Assembly: GCA_021845685.1 (NCBI GenBank)
Contig: JAJZVN010000015.1
Coordinates: forward strand, 1-48,744
DNA: 48,744 nucleotides
Source of the DNA: a bacterium
GTDB lineage: Bacteria; SZUA-79; Acidulodesulfobacterales; Acidulodesulfobacteraceae
Direction: 5' to 3'
Positions 1 to 27,280 of this stretch are shown here, one piece after another; positions within the stretch are counted from its first letter, which is position 1, and every line of letters begins with the position of its first letter. The position numbers and the translations under genes were made by a program. A model generated the notes under the pieces. It was given only the letters and a program-made list of their open reading frames with translations. It had not been told where the DNA came from and made no database searches.

Positions 1-143
1 CCATAATTAACAGCAGCATATTGATATTATTATATTTATGGGGACAATAAAAATGTCTATGGGGACTACAAAATAAAAAATAAAATGCAACAATATCAAT
101 AAGTTATAATTTTATAATAATAAAAACTATGAAATTGAGTTAA
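1..143. repeat. Miniature AT-rich repeat, family 1, copy 1 (left end cut by window)
   Basis: This stretch can be aligned by eye, with many differences, to 2863-3016. Both contain a run like ATTAACA(A/G)CA(A/G)CATATT near the left, then a TATTTAT(T/G)(A/G)GG block, a TAAAATG(C/T)AA block, an AAGTTATA/GAGTTATA block, and a right end resembling TGAA(A/G)TT(G/T)(A/G)GTTAA. The left terminus lies outside the window or has been lost. No open frame of note is inside. It is probably a decayed non-autonomous element. Confidence 0.5.
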
Positions 144-18335: not shown

Positions 18336-19697
18336 TTATAATGCTGAAAGCGGAATGGCATTAACCCATCCAAAATTAGTTCCAATTATCATAGTTTTCC
18401 CGATAATAACTGCATCTTGAGGTCCGTATCCGCCGTTATGGGCATTATATTTACTTATTATATTTCCGTTATTTTTATTTAAAACAAATATAGTTCCATT
18501 TCCTGTCGGAAAATAAACTTTATATCCTAATATTACAGGGGCTGCTTTCATTCTTATAAGTTTTTTGCTCCATAATATATATCCGGTTTTTAAGTTTATT
18601 GCATAACCTTTTTTTGTAACAGGGCTTCCTGTGTAAATTATACCTCTATGAATCATTGGAACGGCATCTTTATTTCTAGGAGGAATCTTACCTGAACCTA
18701 AAATTGTCGACCATATAATTTTACCGTTATGCACATTAACCCCTAATTCTTCACTGCGTGAAGTGCCTGAAGTTAACCCTGGCAATTCAATTTGCGCAAC
18801 TACTATACCGCTTTTAGATATAGCCGGTGAACCATCGCCCATACTTGAAGAAAAAACATGAGCAGGTTTTAATTTCCATATTATTTTACCGGTATTTGCA
18901 TTTACGGCATATAAATAATTAGGATGAGTACCTCCTATTATTATTATATTTTTATATCTTGCGGCAGAAGACATACTCACAAATGACCTGATATAGGTTT
19001 TCCATAATAATTTTCCGGTACTTGCATTTAATCCGTAAATATGACCGTCACCATTACCGAATATAAGTTCATTATTGTAGTATACAGGGGTTGGCATATC
19101 CTCGCCTTTTGTATGATATTCCCATATAAGTTTTCCTGTTCTTGCGTTTAATGCATAATATGCGCTAATATCAACGCCTCTTATGACATGCGAATGATGT
19201 ATTGCAAATTTTATTGCATGGGAATAGGCAAACACAGAATTACCTGCTCCAATATAAACTATGCCGTTATCAATAATCGGGGTTCCCATAAGCTGGTTTA
19301 AAGCATTAAATTGCCATACAGGTTTTCCTGTTTTGACATTTAAAGCATAGAGATAACCATTATCGCTCGGAACATATACTATGCCGTTAGCAACAGATGC
19401 GCCGATAGGAATACCAAGCAAATCCCGAACCGTCGTAACATTAATGTATCTTTTTTTAATAGCACGTATTGACATATTACTCGGTATAGCTCCCGGAACC
19501 CCGACTGTCCAATAAACATTTAAATTGCTGCCATTTTCATAAACAGGATTATGGTCGGAATTCATAGCATACATTGTCCAGTTGGCAGGATAAGCACCTG
19601 CAAAAGATTTATACGGCATTATAAATGCTATACTTATAAACATTAATGCTAATATAGAAGATATTCGCAAAAACGACAAATTAATTTTTGATTTCAT
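18336..19697 (-). CDS. Secreted PQQ-type beta-propeller protein
   Basis: 453-aa exported protein. Signal peptide at 1-34 with a cleavage site near SFAGA. The mature protein is a chain of PQQ-like propeller blades, visible as recurring Y-x-LN-x2-TGK-x2-W units: YALNVKTGKPVWQF, YALNARTGKLIWEY, YGLNASTGKLLWKT, YAVNANTGKIIWKL, VNVHNGKIIWS and YAINLKTGYILWS. There is no Cys and no PQQ-dehydrogenase catalytic motif, so a structural or BamB-like scaffold role, or a cofactor-free periplasmic protein, is more likely than an alcohol dehydrogenase. It has no lipobox. It appears to be first in a two-gene unit with the ROK kinase. Confidence 0.8.
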   Translation of the reverse strand: MKSKINLSFLRISSILALMFISIAFIMPYKSFAGAYPANWTMYAMNSDHNPVYENGSNLNVYWTVGVPGAIPSNMSIRAIKKRYINVTTVRDLLGIPIGASVANGIVYVPSDNGYLYALNVKTGKPVWQFNALNQLMGTPIIDNGIVYIGAGNSVFAYSHAIKFAIHHSHVIRGVDISAYYALNARTGKLIWEYHTKGEDMPTPVYYNNELIFGNGDGHIYGLNASTGKLLWKTYIRSFVSMSSAARYKNIIIIGGTHPNYLYAVNANTGKIIWKLKPAHVFSSSMGDGSPAISKSGIVVAQIELPGLTSGTSRSEELGVNVHNGKIIWSTILGSGKIPPRNKDAVPMIHRGIIYTGSPVTKKGYAINLKTGYILWSKKLIRMKAAPVILGYKVYFPTGNGTIFVLNKNNGNIISKYNAHNGGYGPQDAVIIGKTMIIGTNFGWVNAIPLSAL

Positions 19698-20015
19698 CCT
19701 AATTTCAATGCCTCCATTTTTAATTTAGAATTAATATTAAAATATAATTAAAAAATTAATTATATTTTAATATTATTATATTGACTTATTTTATAAAAAA
19801 ATCGTTTAATTAATTAATAAGTTAATCGCGATAGTTATTTTATTGTTCTTCTAATCTAATAATTATAACACATCTGAAGTTTTTTTATACTTCTATTATT
19901 ATACTTCTATTAAAAGATAATAGAAGTATAATATATTATATTATATTATATTATATAATCTATTTAACCATTTGCAATAGAACTTTGAAATAATTACAGA
20001 AATATTATTATTACC
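19698..20015. other. AT-rich spacer with a perfect 12-bp hairpin
   Basis: Contains ATACTTCTATTA (19901-19912) and its exact complement TAATAGAAGTAT (19918-19929) around a 5-nt loop. A further direct copy of TATACTTCTATTA lies immediately upstream. No T-run follows on either strand. No gene is seen. The promoter of the propeller gene should lie near 19700-19800. Confidence 0.5.
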
Positions 20016-22413: not shown

Positions 22414-22582
22414 CTATCTTTTAGCGGACTCCAAAAGTTTATCAATATCCGAAATAACCCTATCTACTAAACGAAGTAATTTTTTTCTCTCTTCCTTAAT
22501 ATAATTATAATAGTTAAAAATAGTTTTATTTTTAATATGAGTTTTATTGAATAAATAAATCAGATATCTTTAATATCTTTAA
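22414..22582 (-). pseudogene. Start-less ORF fragment, helical and charged
   Basis: The minus strand carries about 50 open codons ending ...NYIKEERKKLLRLVDRVISDIDKLLESAKR-stop. There is no ATG/GTG/TTG with a ribosome-binding site; an in-frame stop precedes it. The composition is more protein-like (amphipathic helix) than the surrounding A/T spacer. It may be the tail of a gene lost when the neighbouring island rearranged. Confidence 0.35.
22549..22571. repeat. GAATAAATAAATCAGATATCTTT motif, copy 1
   Basis: One of four copies of this motif (others at 25668, 27211 and 27247), each next to an accessory-island gene end. The core is the palindrome AGATATCT. Confidence 0.7.
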
Positions 22583-22605: not shown

Positions 22606-24012
22606 TTATTTAATTTCTTTAATTGAAGAAATCAATTTTTCTCCTTCAAATAATAAAATCTTATCTTTCCTTGCCATATCCGTCATTTTCTCGGTAAAGC
22701 CGCTTTTGCTGAATAAACAGTAATATTCTTTCCTATTTTTATTTTTTCCGCCCCATGCAACCATTTTAGATTTGCGTTTTAAGTTCTCGATTATATCGAC
22801 GCCAACGGGCTTATTGCTCCATTTAACCTCGCCGAAAAGTATAGAATCTATTTCCCTGTTTATAGCAATAAAATCTATTTCTTCATTATTATCCCACCAT
22901 CTGCCTATAAACCGAAAGGGAAAAAACAGTTCCGTTCTTTTGGATATTATCTGCATAGCTATGCGTTCATATAAAAACGAAAGATATATAGGCAGGTCTT
23001 TTTTTATTGCCTCAAGAACGGGGTCTATGCTACCTAACTCCAGTTCGCTTCTTTTCGGAAATATAAATTTGAAAAAAAACTGAAAGAATTCATCCGTAAT
23101 GCGATAAAGCCCTTTTCTGCTTTTAAGCGGCATTTCTTCGGTTACAGGAAGTTCTCTTTCGACTATTCTTAAGTCCGATAAAACGGAAAGATATTTATTT
23201 GCCGTAGGCTGATTTATGCCGGTTGAATTGACGATTTCGGAAAGTTTTCTTTTGCCGAGGGCAATGGCCTGAAGGAGGGCAAAATAGTATCTGGGTTCTC
23301 TTAATTCTTCCCTTAGTATGAACTCTGCTTCGTCGTATAATACCCTGCCTTTTTTCAATACACATTCCGTTAAATTATCGTCAAATTTTTTATCATTATC
23401 AAATTGCAGCCAGTAAGCGGGTATTCCGCCTGCTACGCCGTAGTGCATTAATCTATCCTCAAAAGGCTTATCTTTTCTGAAACTGCTCACGGAATCGAAT
23501 GGCATGGGTTCTACAAGCCATTGTCCGGTTCTTCTTCCGTAAAGAGGTGCTTTATAGCCCAAAACTTCGGTTTCCATCATAGATATGCTTGAGCCGAGAA
23601 TTATAAGATATATACTGCTTTTAGACCAGTATTCATCCCATGCCATCTGAAACAGGCTTGAGATTGCCGGATTGGATTGGATCAGATAAGGGAATTCGTC
23701 TATGGCTAATACAAATTTTTTGCCTTTTTCTTTTATATATTTAAAACTTTCTTCCCATTCCCCAAAACCTCTTGTTTCAAGAAGAGGTTCGTTAAAAAAT
23801 TTTCCGATGGAAAGTGAAAACTTTTTTAACTGGTCTTTATTGCTTGTATTCTCGGAAAAAAAATATATGCTTGGCTTATTTTTAATAAACTGCTTAACTA
23901 ATTCCGTTTTGCCGACCCGTCTTTTCCCCCATAAAACTATTAATTGGGGTTTGTTTTCAAGCCATTTTTCTTCAAGAAACGATAATTCTTCTTTTCTATT
24001 TATAAATGCCAT
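22606..24012 (-). CDS. ATPase_2/DUF234 AAA-type ATPase
   Basis: 468-aa protein with an N-terminal AAA-type NTPase: MAFINRKEELSFLEE, Walker A GKRRVGKT (29-36), Walker B VLAIDEFPYL (101-110). It continues through a winged-helix region (STGINQPTANKYLSVLSDLRIVERELPVTE) to a C-terminal DUF234-like domain with EIDFIAINREIDSILFGEVKW, a PD-(D/E)xK-nuclease-like pattern. Such proteins are common in archaea and AT-rich anaerobes as singletons of unknown function, often in mobile or defence regions. The open frame extends to 24087, but the ATG at 24012 gives the family N-terminus (MxFINRxEEL). It is divergent from the second ATPase at 24321. Confidence 0.85.
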   Translation of the reverse strand: MAFINRKEELSFLEEKWLENKPQLIVLWGKRRVGKTELVKQFIKNKPSIYFFSENTSNKDQLKKFSLSIGKFFNEPLLETRGFGEWEESFKYIKEKGKKFVLAIDEFPYLIQSNPAISSLFQMAWDEYWSKSSIYLIILGSSISMMETEVLGYKAPLYGRRTGQWLVEPMPFDSVSSFRKDKPFEDRLMHYGVAGGIPAYWLQFDNDKKFDDNLTECVLKKGRVLYDEAEFILREELREPRYYFALLQAIALGKRKLSEIVNSTGINQPTANKYLSVLSDLRIVERELPVTEEMPLKSRKGLYRITDEFFQFFFKFIFPKRSELELGSIDPVLEAIKKDLPIYLSFLYERIAMQIISKRTELFFPFRFIGRWWDNNEEIDFIAINREIDSILFGEVKWSNKPVGVDIIENLKRKSKMVAWGGKNKNRKEYYCLFSKSGFTEKMTDMARKDKILLFEGEKLISSIKEIK

Positions 24013-24237
24013 AAATTTAATATTAATATTAATATACTCATAAGTATTATACTTTAGAGTATATAAATAAATATACCTCAATATCAATAATAATTCAAGT
24101 ACATTATAACCCCCAAATCCCGATTTAGAAAATATTTTTTAACGCAATCGACAAACCGGCGTATATAATAATTCCAAACCTTCCTCTATGGTCTTAGAAA
24201 TTTGTCGTAATAATGTAAATATTGCAATAATTATTTG
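24013..24237. other. Spacer between divergent ATPase genes
   Basis: No gene is recognised. A short minus-strand open stretch (about 24120-24210) encodes ...RQISKTIEEGLELL..., too short and start-less to call. The right end leads into the palindromic promoter. Confidence 0.3.
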
Positions 24238-24285
24238 TCCTTGACATAAGGATAAATAATTATTATAATATCCTTATGTCAAGGA
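24226..24285 (+). promoter_or_regulatory. Consensus sigma70 promoter embedded in a compound palindrome (candidate operator)
   Basis: TTGACA at 24241-24246 and TATAAT at 24264-24269 are separated by exactly 17 bp, a perfect consensus promoter pointing at the ATPase gene at 24321. The -35 box lies inside TCCTTGACATAAGGATA (24238-24254), whose perfect 17-bp inverted copy is at 24269-24285, starting at the last base of the -10 box. A second, overlapping inverted repeat pairs 24226-24240 with 24250-24264 (15 bp, one mismatch). Each 15-bp box TCCTT-GACAT-AAGGA is itself dyad-like. A dimeric repressor site is the natural reading. Confidence 0.75.
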
Positions 24286-24320: not shown

Positions 24321-25643
24321 ATGCGCCTTAAACTAAAAATTATGGATAAAAATACATTAAAAGAAATTATCGTATCAAATGAAGAATTCATAACTAAAAA
24401 CATAAAAAATATTATAAAAAGGGAACGCCTTTACTTTCCGGAAAAAATTAATAAAACGGTTATCTTTTACGGCGTAAGAAGAAGCGGAAAAACATTTATT
24501 TTATACGATATATTTAAAAAATATAATAAAAAAGCCGGCAACTGTCTTTATATCGATTTCGAAGACGAACGCCTTGGCGATTTTAATTCAAACGATTTCG
24601 AAAAAATAAAAGAAGCCTTTTTTGAGCTAAAACCGGAATTGGCGGGTAAAGAAATCTGTTTTTTATTAGATGAAATTCAAAATATAGACGGCTGGGAGAA
24701 ATTTTGCAGAAGAGCGACGGAAAGGGGAAATATAAAATTATTTGTCAGCGGTTCATCATCTAAAATTATGCCTTTAGAAATAAATACCGAACTAAGGGGA
24801 AGGTCGTGGAGCATAGAAATTTTTCCTTTGTCTTTCAAAGAATATCTGCATATAAAAAAAATAGATTTAAAGGGGAGGACGCTGTCATTATATGGAAATA
24901 AAAAATATTTAGTTAAAAAACACTTTTCGGATTATTTAAAATGGGGAGGGTTTCCGGAAATCGCCTATCTTGAATCGGATTTTGAAAAGACAAAATTACT
25001 CAAAGAGTATATGAGCGCCATGTTTTTCAGAGATATAGTCGAAAGATACAAAATTTCGAACATATCTCTTTTAGAATTGTTGATTGACAAGATTTTTTCT
25101 TCTTTTTCAACTAAATTTTCGGTAACGCAAATATACAAACAATACAAGGATAAAATCCCTTTTTCAAAAGATACCCTATTTAAATATTATAAATATCTTT
25201 TGGACAGTATGCTCATATTTGAAATAAAACTCTTTTCCGAGTCAAGCTACAAAAGGCATAGAAACCCTTCAAAAATTTACGTTATAGATACGGGCATGTG
25301 CAAACGGGTTACATCTTCGGATTCCGGAAGATTGCTTGAAAATATCGTATTTATTGAACTAAAAAGAAGATATAGCGAAATTTTTTATTTCGAACAGGAA
25401 AAAGAATGCGATTTCATAATAAAAACCGATAACCTTGACAATAAATTTTTAGCTCTGCAGGTAACATTGGAACTTAACGAAACAAACAGGGAAAGGGAAA
25501 CGAACGGCCTTATCAAAGCTTGTAAATATCTAAAGCTAAAAGAAGGATTGATTATTACCGCGGATGAAGAAAAAGATATAGTAGTAGATAATATTAACAT
25601 AAAGATTATTCCTGCATGGAAATGGTTGATTGCTAATTTGTAA
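24321..25643 (+). CDS. AAA_14/DUF4143 ATPase
   Basis: 440-aa protein of the AAA_14 plus DUF4143 architecture. Walker A GVRRSGKT (51-58), Walker B ICFLLDEIQNIDGWE (112-126), FVSGSSSKIM (sensor-like, 141-150), then EIFPLSFKEYL. The C-terminal DUF4143 region, which includes a winged-helix segment (SVTQIYKQYKDKIPFSKDTLFKYYKYLLDS), ends in a nuclease-like stretch FIELKRRYSEIFYFEQEKECDFII. The role is unknown; the family is widespread, singleton and often transferred. ATG 24321 follows an in-frame stop and is the earliest start; ATG 24342 is an alternative. A 128-bp piece of this gene is repeated at 27082-27209. Confidence 0.9.
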   Translation: MRLKLKIMDKNTLKEIIVSNEEFITKNIKNIIKRERLYFPEKINKTVIFYGVRRSGKTFILYDIFKKYNKKAGNCLYIDFEDERLGDFNSNDFEKIKEAFFELKPELAGKEICFLLDEIQNIDGWEKFCRRATERGNIKLFVSGSSSKIMPLEINTELRGRSWSIEIFPLSFKEYLHIKKIDLKGRTLSLYGNKKYLVKKHFSDYLKWGGFPEIAYLESDFEKTKLLKEYMSAMFFRDIVERYKISNISLLELLIDKIFSSFSTKFSVTQIYKQYKDKIPFSKDTLFKYYKYLLDSMLIFEIKLFSESSYKRHRNPSKIYVIDTGMCKRVTSSDSGRLLENIVFIELKRRYSEIFYFEQEKECDFIIKTDNLDNKFLALQVTLELNETNRERETNGLIKACKYLKLKEGLIITADEEKDIVVDNINIKIIPAWKWLIANL

Positions 25644-25667: not shown

Positions 25668-25700
25668 AATAAATAAATAAATAAATCAGATATCTTTTCC
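25668..25700. repeat. GAATAAAT...CAGATATCTTT motif, copy 2
   Basis: Same motif as at 22549 with two extra AAAT units, located 25 nt after the DUF4143 ATPase stop. It shares ...CAGATATCTTTTCC with copy 4. Confidence 0.7.
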
Positions 25701-25986
25701 TTTTAAAATTACATACTAAACGGTTAGTATAGTAATTATTAATTATATAACTTATAAAAGTTATGTCAAGCAAATTTTAAACAGCAAATTTTAAAACTAT
25801 TTTATTTATTATTTTATACAATAACTTAAGCTAATACAGATAAAATAGAATAATTGTAATTTGTTTATATTAAAAATTTTCAATTATATATTACTTATGA
25901 TATGATACAATAATGATATTAATTTGATGTTGTAAAAATTATGAATGCGTGAATATATGTAATGAATCTATAGAATATATAAATAT
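25701..25986. other. AT-rich spacer upstream of mntA
   Basis: No gene seen. Includes TACTAAACGGTTAGTA (25713-25728), a palindrome with 7-bp arms around a 2-nt centre that could be an operator. The promoter of mntA-hepT should lie in this spacer. Confidence 0.4.
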
Positions 25987-26442
25987 ATGGACAAAAAACA
26001 AAAAAATATTAAATTGATAAAGCATTTAGAAGATTTTTTTAGGAAAAATGCGCAAAAATTTAACATTGAAATGGCATTTTTGTTTGGTTCTCAGGCAAGC
26101 GGTTTTCCGATGGAAGATTCGGATATAGATATTGGAATAGTTTTTAATAATAATAAATTCTCTAACGATGATATCTTTTCAAAAATAACGGATATTTCGC
26201 TTGAAATATCAGAAATGGGCAATTCCGATATAAACATAATTCCTGTTTATTATGATTTTAGAAAACCGCTGCTATACTATAATGTGATTGTTTTGGGTAA
26301 GCCTCTGTATATCGGAAATTTTAATAGATATATTTCATTAAAAAATGAGGCTATTTTTCAAATGGAAGATTTCAGTATTTTTGGAGAAAAATGGATGATA
26401 GAAATTGCAAAAAACAAATTAAAGGAAATCAAAAATGCCTGA
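25987..26442 (+). CDS. mntA: MntA-type nucleotidyltransferase antitoxin
   Basis: 151-aa minimal nucleotidyltransferase. The hallmark GSx10DxD is exact: G34-S35 ... D46-I-D48 in FLFGSQASGF PMEDSDIDIG. In characterised MntA-HepT (MNT-HEPN) systems this enzyme transfers AMP units onto a tyrosine of the HepT toxin and neutralises it. It overlaps the hepT gene by 8 nt, the usual antitoxin-toxin coupling. The start ATG has no clear ribosome-binding site. The C-terminal part (ISLKNEAIFQMEDFSIFGEKWMIEIAKNKL) is helical. Confidence 0.9.
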   Translation: MDKKQKNIKLIKHLEDFFRKNAQKFNIEMAFLFGSQASGFPMEDSDIDIGIVFNNNKFSNDDIFSKITDISLEISEMGNSDINIIPVYYDFRKPLLYYNVIVLGKPLYIGNFNRYISLKNEAIFQMEDFSIFGEKWMIEIAKNKLKEIKNA

Positions 26443-26863
26443 GTTTACATATGCAAAGGGTAGAATTATAGAAACATTGAATTTTATCCTTGAAGAAATA
26501 AAAGAATTTGAAACCGATTATGAAAATAAAACATGGGTAGATTATCAAAAAGATAAGAAATTACAGAAATTAATAGATAGAACAGTGGAAAATATCCTTA
26601 CGGCATTTATTGAATTATGCGGCACCGTAATTACTCAGGAAGGAATTTCTGCCGAGAATTATGCGGATGCCGTTAAAAAATGCTCTAAAATATTCGGTTT
26701 TGAAGAGGAAGAGCAAAATGCATTATCAAAATTGGCTATTCAAAGAAACAGGCTTGCTCATCGTTATATGGATTTTCGCTGGCAGGCAATAAAAACATTC
26801 ATAGAACAAAAAAAATCAGTTTTAAGATTGTTAAGTAAAATTATCATACGAGAAGAAGAATAA
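26435..26863 (+). CDS. hepT: HepT-type HEPN ribonuclease toxin
   Basis: 142-aa all-helical HEPN-domain protein (DUF86/HepT family). The catalytic motif Rx4HxY is intact: R104-NRLA-H109-R-Y111. HepT toxins cleave RNA (tRNA or mRNA, depending on the system), and the Tyr is the residue AMPylated by MntA in characterised systems. The gene overlaps mntA by 8 nt. An intact toxin with intact antitoxin suggests a live module. Confidence 0.9.
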   Translation: MPEFTYAKGRIIETLNFILEEIKEFETDYENKTWVDYQKDKKLQKLIDRTVENILTAFIELCGTVITQEGISAENYADAVKKCSKIFGFEEEEQNALSKLAIQRNRLAHRYMDFRWQAIKTFIEQKKSVLRLLSKIIIREEE

Positions 26864-27053: not shown

Positions 27054-27081
27054 CCGTGATAGAAGCGCCTAATCTTTCAAA

Positions 27082-27209
27082 CTAAATTTTCGATAACGCA
27101 AATATACAAACAATACAAGGATAAAATCCCTTTTTCAAAAGATACCCTATTTAAATATTATAAATATCTTTTGGACAGTATGCTCATATTTGAAATAAAA
27201 CTCTTTTCC
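27082..27209 (+). pseudogene. 128-bp fragment of the DUF4143 ATPase gene
   Basis: Nearly identical to 25111-25238 of the intact ATPase gene (for example CTAAATTTTCG(G/A)TAACGCAA, then unbroken identity through AAACTCTTTTCC). The copy is internal and lacks both gene ends. It joins directly, at 27210, to two copies of the GAATAAATAAATCAGATATC motif. It is evidence of a recent duplication or recombination event in the island. Confidence 0.9.
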
Positions 27210-27210
27210 A

Positions 27211-27272
27211 GAATAAATAAATCAGATATCTTTTTCTATTGCCTCAGAATAAATAAATCAGATATCTTTTCC
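27211..27272. repeat. GAATAAATAAATCAGATATCTTT motif, copies 3 and 4 in tandem
   Basis: Two copies, 27211-27235 and 27247-27272, separated by CTATTGCCTCA. This linker, with the preceding T-run, resembles a piece of the DUF234 ATPase gene around 23000 (TTTTTATTGCCTCAAG), hinting that both ATPase genes contributed fragments here. Confidence 0.75.
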
Positions 27273-27280
27273 TTCTTTTC

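Follow-up and report, generated by a model that had tools for sequence, protein, structure and literature searches.

In the window (the whole stretch of DNA that was analysed, 48,744 nucleotides), positions 24238-24285 are best read as a two-operator autoregulatory promoter of a PDC-S01-type ATPase gene, at which the encoded protein would bind two boxes and repress its own transcription; we put the probability of this reading at about 0.7. The reading rests on sequence evidence of five kinds: the paired layout of the boxes, their spacing, their family-exclusive link in 60 genomes, their covariation with a predicted recognition helix, and the lack of a conserved partner gene.

The exact consensus promoter TTGACA-17-TATAAT, read directly from the sequence at 24241-24269, is of the sigma-70 type, with -35 and -10 hexamers about 17 bp apart upstream of a gene. 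As the earlier note had described, it overlaps a perfect 17-bp inverted repeat within 24238-24285 (arms 24238-24254 and 24269-24285, gap 14 nt). The features of the promoter region are as follows.

24219..24271, no strand: longer imperfect palindrome (88%) with the left box at its centre (from the sequence)
24238..24252, + strand: putative left operator box TCCTTGACATAAGGA, overlapping the -35 element (from the sequence; the paired-box layout recurs before homologues)
24241..24246, + strand: -35 element TTGACA (exact consensus)
24264..24269, + strand: -10 element TATAAT, 17 bp after the -35 element (exact consensus)
24271..24285, + strand: putative right operator box TCCTTATGTCAAGGA, over the predicted transcription start (from the sequence; the 33-bp spacing is the single peak among homologues)

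Each 17-bp arm contains its own TCCTT-N5-AAGGA dyad (24238-24252 and 24271-24285). TCCTTATGTCAAGGA is the reverse complement of TCCTTGACATAAGGA, and the boxes are opposed, 15 bp each and 33 bp apart. The opposed TCCTT-type boxes of the earlier note are thus present, but what it called nested palindromes is more aptly seen as a pair of equal operators separated by some three turns of the helix. Transcription is predicted to start at about 24276, within the right box. The longer imperfect palindrome is probably an incidental AT-rich flank; by eye, it was not conserved as a feature in homologues.

Block shuffles of the window gave perfect inverted repeats of 14 bp at most, compared with 17 bp at the promoter, and the exact 17-spaced promoter occurs once in the window against 0.04 expected. 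Rarity of the consensus promoter, on which the earlier note had placed weight, was rejected as the finding: the 3.04-Mb genome holds 37 exact consensus promoters with spacings of 16-18 (reversed-pattern control, 9). The promoter by itself is therefore ordinary, and the boxes are the real signal. No second copy of the box was found anywhere in its own genome at 0-1 mismatches, and a wider regulon in this genome was rejected. A box found nowhere else had been named among the grounds for refutation; this holds within the genome, where it counts against a regulon, but the box recurs upstream of homologues elsewhere.

The gene behind this promoter and the part of it that would read the boxes are the following.

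24342..25643, + strand: PDC-S01-type ATPase gene (AAA_14, winged helix and DUF4143), 433 aa
25167..25205, + strand: predicted recognition-helix codons (residues 276-288, Asp277 included; from the structure and from covariation with the box word)

Alignment favours ATG 24342 as the start, with an upstream ATG at 24321 as a possible alternative. In line with the suspected association with defence, the ATPase is a clear member of the defence-candidate family PDC-S01 of PADLOC (AAA_14-DUF4143), with a full-length profile match (PDLC04787, E 2e-96, residues 23-431) and with Pfam AAA_14 and DUF4143 both above cut-offs. PDC-S01 is reported to be the fourth most common (putative) defence gene across prokaryotes; an ATPase fused to a PD-(D/E)XK domain has also been described, and most PDCs, PDC-S01 included, await experimental validation (PMC12988326). 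In the literature searched, we found no description of PDC-S01 regulation and nothing of relevance on DUF4143, COG1373, or DUF234; matches in the M. maripaludis and Haloferax literature were false, as they concern DUF2341/DUF2342.

An AlphaFold model built from 86 family sequences (mean pLDDT 94) predicts an AAA+ core, a winged helix (residues 241-297), and a nuclease-like C-terminal domain, the domain names being our own from secondary structure plus Pfam. The winged helix, predicted with high confidence (pLDDT 94), comprises helices 241-253 and 261-268, the recognition helix 276-288, and the wing 292-297. A sequence search revealed no close relative among solved structures. The nearest solved folds are archaeal Orc1/Cdc6 on origin DNA (2qby) and SSO1545 (2fna), at 13-14% identity and with low TM-scores of 0.30 and 0.44 by query. 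Both combine AAA+ with a winged helix, as the ATPase does; in contrast to them, the ATPase has an extra nuclease-like C-terminal domain, and, unlike the case of Orc1/Cdc6, the boxes here lie at a promoter and not at an origin.

No repressor gene is adjacent, in agreement with the earlier note; the flanks hold an ATPase_2/DUF234 protein, an MntA/HepT-like pair, ubiE, and an unnamed protein. The divergent neighbour (22606-24087, minus strand; ATG start 24012) has ATPase_2 and DUF234 and corresponds to PDC-S27. Two ATACT-N4-AGTAT dyads (24034-24047 and 24049-24062), 15 bp apart and just upstream of the PDC-S27 gene, are possibly its own operator. A direct repeat, (G/A)AATAAATAAATCAGATATCTTT, occurs at 22549-22580, 25675-25706, 27211-27242, and 27247-27278 and sets the ATPase pair apart from the toxin-antitoxin-like pair (25987-26863; MntA/HepT-like, type VII, below NCBIfam cut-offs). 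Near-copies of the repeat with 1 mismatch are present on six further contigs of the genome, in some cases about 1 kb from each other (control pattern, 0), a spacing that appears cassette-like. Abutting the repeat, 27075-27209 duplicates the ATPase gene fragment 25104-25238 (98%), which we read as a rearrangement scar. A second exact consensus promoter with a palindromic spacer, TTGACATAACTTTTATAAGTTATATAAT (25742-25769, minus strand), is directed back into the repeat, antisense to the ATPase gene. Synteny with close relatives ends at about 27300, with 88% identity to the relative G001 rightward and a differing gene order, which places the cargo block at a rearrangement point. No perfect inverted repeat in the window is longer than the one at 19732-19775 (20-bp arms, 4-nt gap), which follows the gene at 18336-19697 and is probably a terminator.

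The pair is also present upstream of orthologues from the same class. In a first set of 30 genomes, the pattern TCCTTN5AAGGA-N14..22-TCCTTN5AAGGA occurs at 4 sites, each before one of the four closest orthologues and each with 18 bp between the boxes. A second set of 30 genomes holding homologues has the TCCTT pair (at most 2 mismatches) at 11 loci, 11/11 before family members; two of these genes, initially unrecognised, proved to be family members on translation. When both searches were joined (4 loci from the first set and 11 from the second), all 15 TCCTT-type pairs found in the 60 genomes (about 135 Mb) fronted family members. Named genomes were also scanned and yielded 80 ATPase homologues from many bacterial phyla plus archaea, and the boxes are kept by homologues in many phyla and archaea with identities up to 63%. 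ATPases 58-63% identical occur in an unclassified bacterial MAG, Atribacteria, Planctomycetota, Elusimicrobia, and a Micrarchaeota MAG, single MAG assignments being liable to err; such close copies in distant phyla indicate wide horizontal transfer of the ATPase gene. Apart from further family members, no conserved neighbour gene was found beside the homologues, and no regulator.

The layout was also scored without any given word, as two equal dyads (arm-7) with a threshold of 25 of 28. Scores of at least 25 were reached by 26 of 87 upstream regions, against 0/83 downstream regions and 0/870 dinucleotide shuffles. No boxes were found behind the homologue genes. Across spacings of 20-45 bp there was a single peak at 33 bp, or at 34 bp with a 6-bp loop, the latter peak being small. 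Where several boxes are present they stand in the 33-bp register (five in L146, three in L143), with one exception at 32 bp (L122). The same layout is built from other box words in other homologues, including TCCAT (Nanoarchaeota, L131), GACTT (L148), TGGTT (Woesearchaeota, L152), TTCAT (L165), and GTCAT (L129); by this comparison, the architecture is more conserved than the box word. In bacterial members, the left box holds the -35 element, the spacer ends with the -10 element, and the right box covers the start region. The ATG of the gene itself lies inside the right box in L063, L064, L076, and the Calditerrivibrio plasmid pCALNI01, for which leaderless transcripts are thus predicted. Archaeal members have, by eye, a TATA-like stretch between the boxes. 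It counts against autoregulation that a clear pair is present in only about 30-45% of homologues and that many homologues, in Bacteroidota especially, have a single box or none. In a second set of relatives from Bacteroidota, only a minority had the pair (mainly L219, L211, and L212).

Among 409 alignment columns of 104 non-redundant homologues, residue 277, the second of the predicted recognition helix, ranked first by mutual information with TCCTT-box presence. Asp occupies this position in 26 of 30 box-bearing homologues versus 11 of 74 others. A tree that left out the columns of the winged helix has 16 changes in box presence, and in 11 independent pairs Asp277 moves with the box 6.2 times and opposite to it 0.2 times (median p 0.03), a modestly significant association that no other column among those listed reached. 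A strict rule equating Asp277 with TCCTT was rejected: single TCCTT boxes occur in a Bacteroidota clade whose residue 277 is Asn, and some Asp277 members carry other words or no box. This looseness and the modest significance on the tree weigh against autoregulation. Taken with the winged helix, the persistence of the link to the gene across domains of life, and the lack of another candidate, the covariation at residue 277 nevertheless supports the ATPase as its own regulator.

Two features of autoregulation are present: paired repeats over the gene's own promoter, and a predicted winged helix (residues 241-297) encoded by the same gene. Since the box is unique in the genome, no regulator is a conserved neighbour, and the operator accompanies the ATPase gene across phyla, the simplest candidate repressor is the ATPase itself. 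The earlier view of a strong, repressed promoter stands insofar as the dyads cover the -35 element and the start, but its separate, missing repressor is unsupported. We infer protein binding at the boxes, repression as the sign of regulation, cooperativity, and the inducing event in the following form. The winged helix of the ATPase would contact both TCCTT-N5-AAGGA boxes, probably with one dimer on each box and cooperation between the two dimers over some three turns of the helix; a distance of 33 bp would put the boxes on the same face of the DNA. The strong promoter would yield ATPase until its level suffices to fill both boxes, and the occupied boxes would then cover the -35 element and the start site and block RNA polymerase, so that a potentially costly or toxic nuclease-ATPase stays at a low, preset amount. 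A circuit that limits itself in this way would suit such a gene when it is spread horizontally. The promoter would be released if the protein were lost or became engaged elsewhere (e.g., on invading DNA). Repression is preferred over activation because the boxes cover the -35 element and the start, and activation may operate in its place.

Control by a separate, widely conserved host repressor would resemble the WYL-domain proteins BrxR and CapW at other defence systems, and defence loci are often under such DNA-binding regulators (PMC9122601, PMC9122589). The likeness lies in defence genes being controlled by a DNA-binding protein; however, BrxR and CapW are encoded by separate regulator genes, and there is none beside the ATPase here, which argues against WYL control. 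Phage contigs that have the pair without the ATPase gene (see below) favour a host repressor and count against autoregulation. We nevertheless consider a host repressor distinctly unlikely, given that no regulator is conserved beside the homologues, that the pair is restricted to upstream regions of family members in 60 genomes, that the box word varies with the ATPase's own recognition helix, and that a single host regulator common to bacteria and archaea is implausible.

The likeness of the AAA+ winged-helix fold to Cdc6/Orc1, the nuclease-like C-terminal domain, the wide horizontal spread of the gene, and the arrays of up to five boxes (L146) would also suit sites for DNA processing (an Orc1/Cdc6-like origin, the end of a mobile gene, or a nuclease target) whose overlap with the promoter is secondary. 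Such a role is very unlikely in our judgement, because the downstream end lacks boxes, the -35, -10, and start lie at fixed positions relative to the boxes, and the ATPase genes lie on varied chromosomal and plasmid contigs with no conserved replication genes nearby. That the dyads are RNA hairpins or terminators, or chance palindromes of AT-rich intergenic DNA, is scarcely credible: the region is AT-rich with several palindromes, and the window has longer inverted repeats at other places (19732), but the predicted start lies downstream of the left box, and both the exact spacing and the link to the gene are seen again in different phyla, as against 0/870 shuffles.

For self-repression by the ATPase, the nearest described case in mode of action is AbiE. 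There the winged-helix antitoxin AbiEi exerts negative autoregulation on its own defence locus by way of inverted repeats, and in S. agalactiae it binds the repeats with positive cooperativity (PMC7319586). AbiEi acts as an antitoxin and has a toxin gene next to it, whereas the locus here has a single AAA+ nuclease-like gene with its own presumed DNA-binding domain, and the boxes, in a further difference from AbiE, are 33-34 bp apart.

A search of IMG/VR for the two boxes with 5-35 bp between them (31 spacings) matched 18 viral contigs, 15 of them (L252-L266) at exactly 18 bp and three at other spacings. These amount to about 8-9 distinct sequences by our grouping, as one phage group supplies six. 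A control word gave 15 viral matches, 0 at the 18-bp spacing, and the 6-bp-loop pair showed no spacing peak in viruses. No family ATPase was found near the phage pairs, and the ATPase profile matched none of the phage records searched, several of which are fragments and make this a weak negative. The pair in L253 (11578-11625) fills the intergenic gap between tRNA-Ile and a 131-aa ORF, another lies at 8415-8462 in L262, and some are inside open frames, such as a primase-like gene in L266 (6892-6939). These unexpected phage pairs may serve as decoys, as phage promoters that the host protein reads, or as sites of a phage regulator of like specificity. A more specific version, in which PDC-S01 reads its own operator in defence and phages copied the pair as decoys that sequester or misdirect the protein, or as promoters wired to it, is speculative and unlikely; if true, one of the commonest candidate defence genes would be the subject of an arms race fought at the level of the operator. 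The phage boxes make the decoy or counter-defence hypothesis directly testable.

These results suggest that a two-site switch travels with the PDC-S01 family and that the protein turns off its own gene there. The paired operator is what is added to the known PDC-S01, and it is probably a new regulatory layer for a widespread candidate defence family. With operator and repressor in one unit, the gene could pass from one phylum or domain to another with its regulation already in place, which would explain how a single gene crosses between bacteria and archaea and is still regulated. The predicted self-operator would be the first testable DNA ligand of PDC-S01 and the first handle on its control, and Asp277 is a candidate specificity position open to mutation. 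Self-repression may also be a reason why cloned PDC-S01 could look silent.
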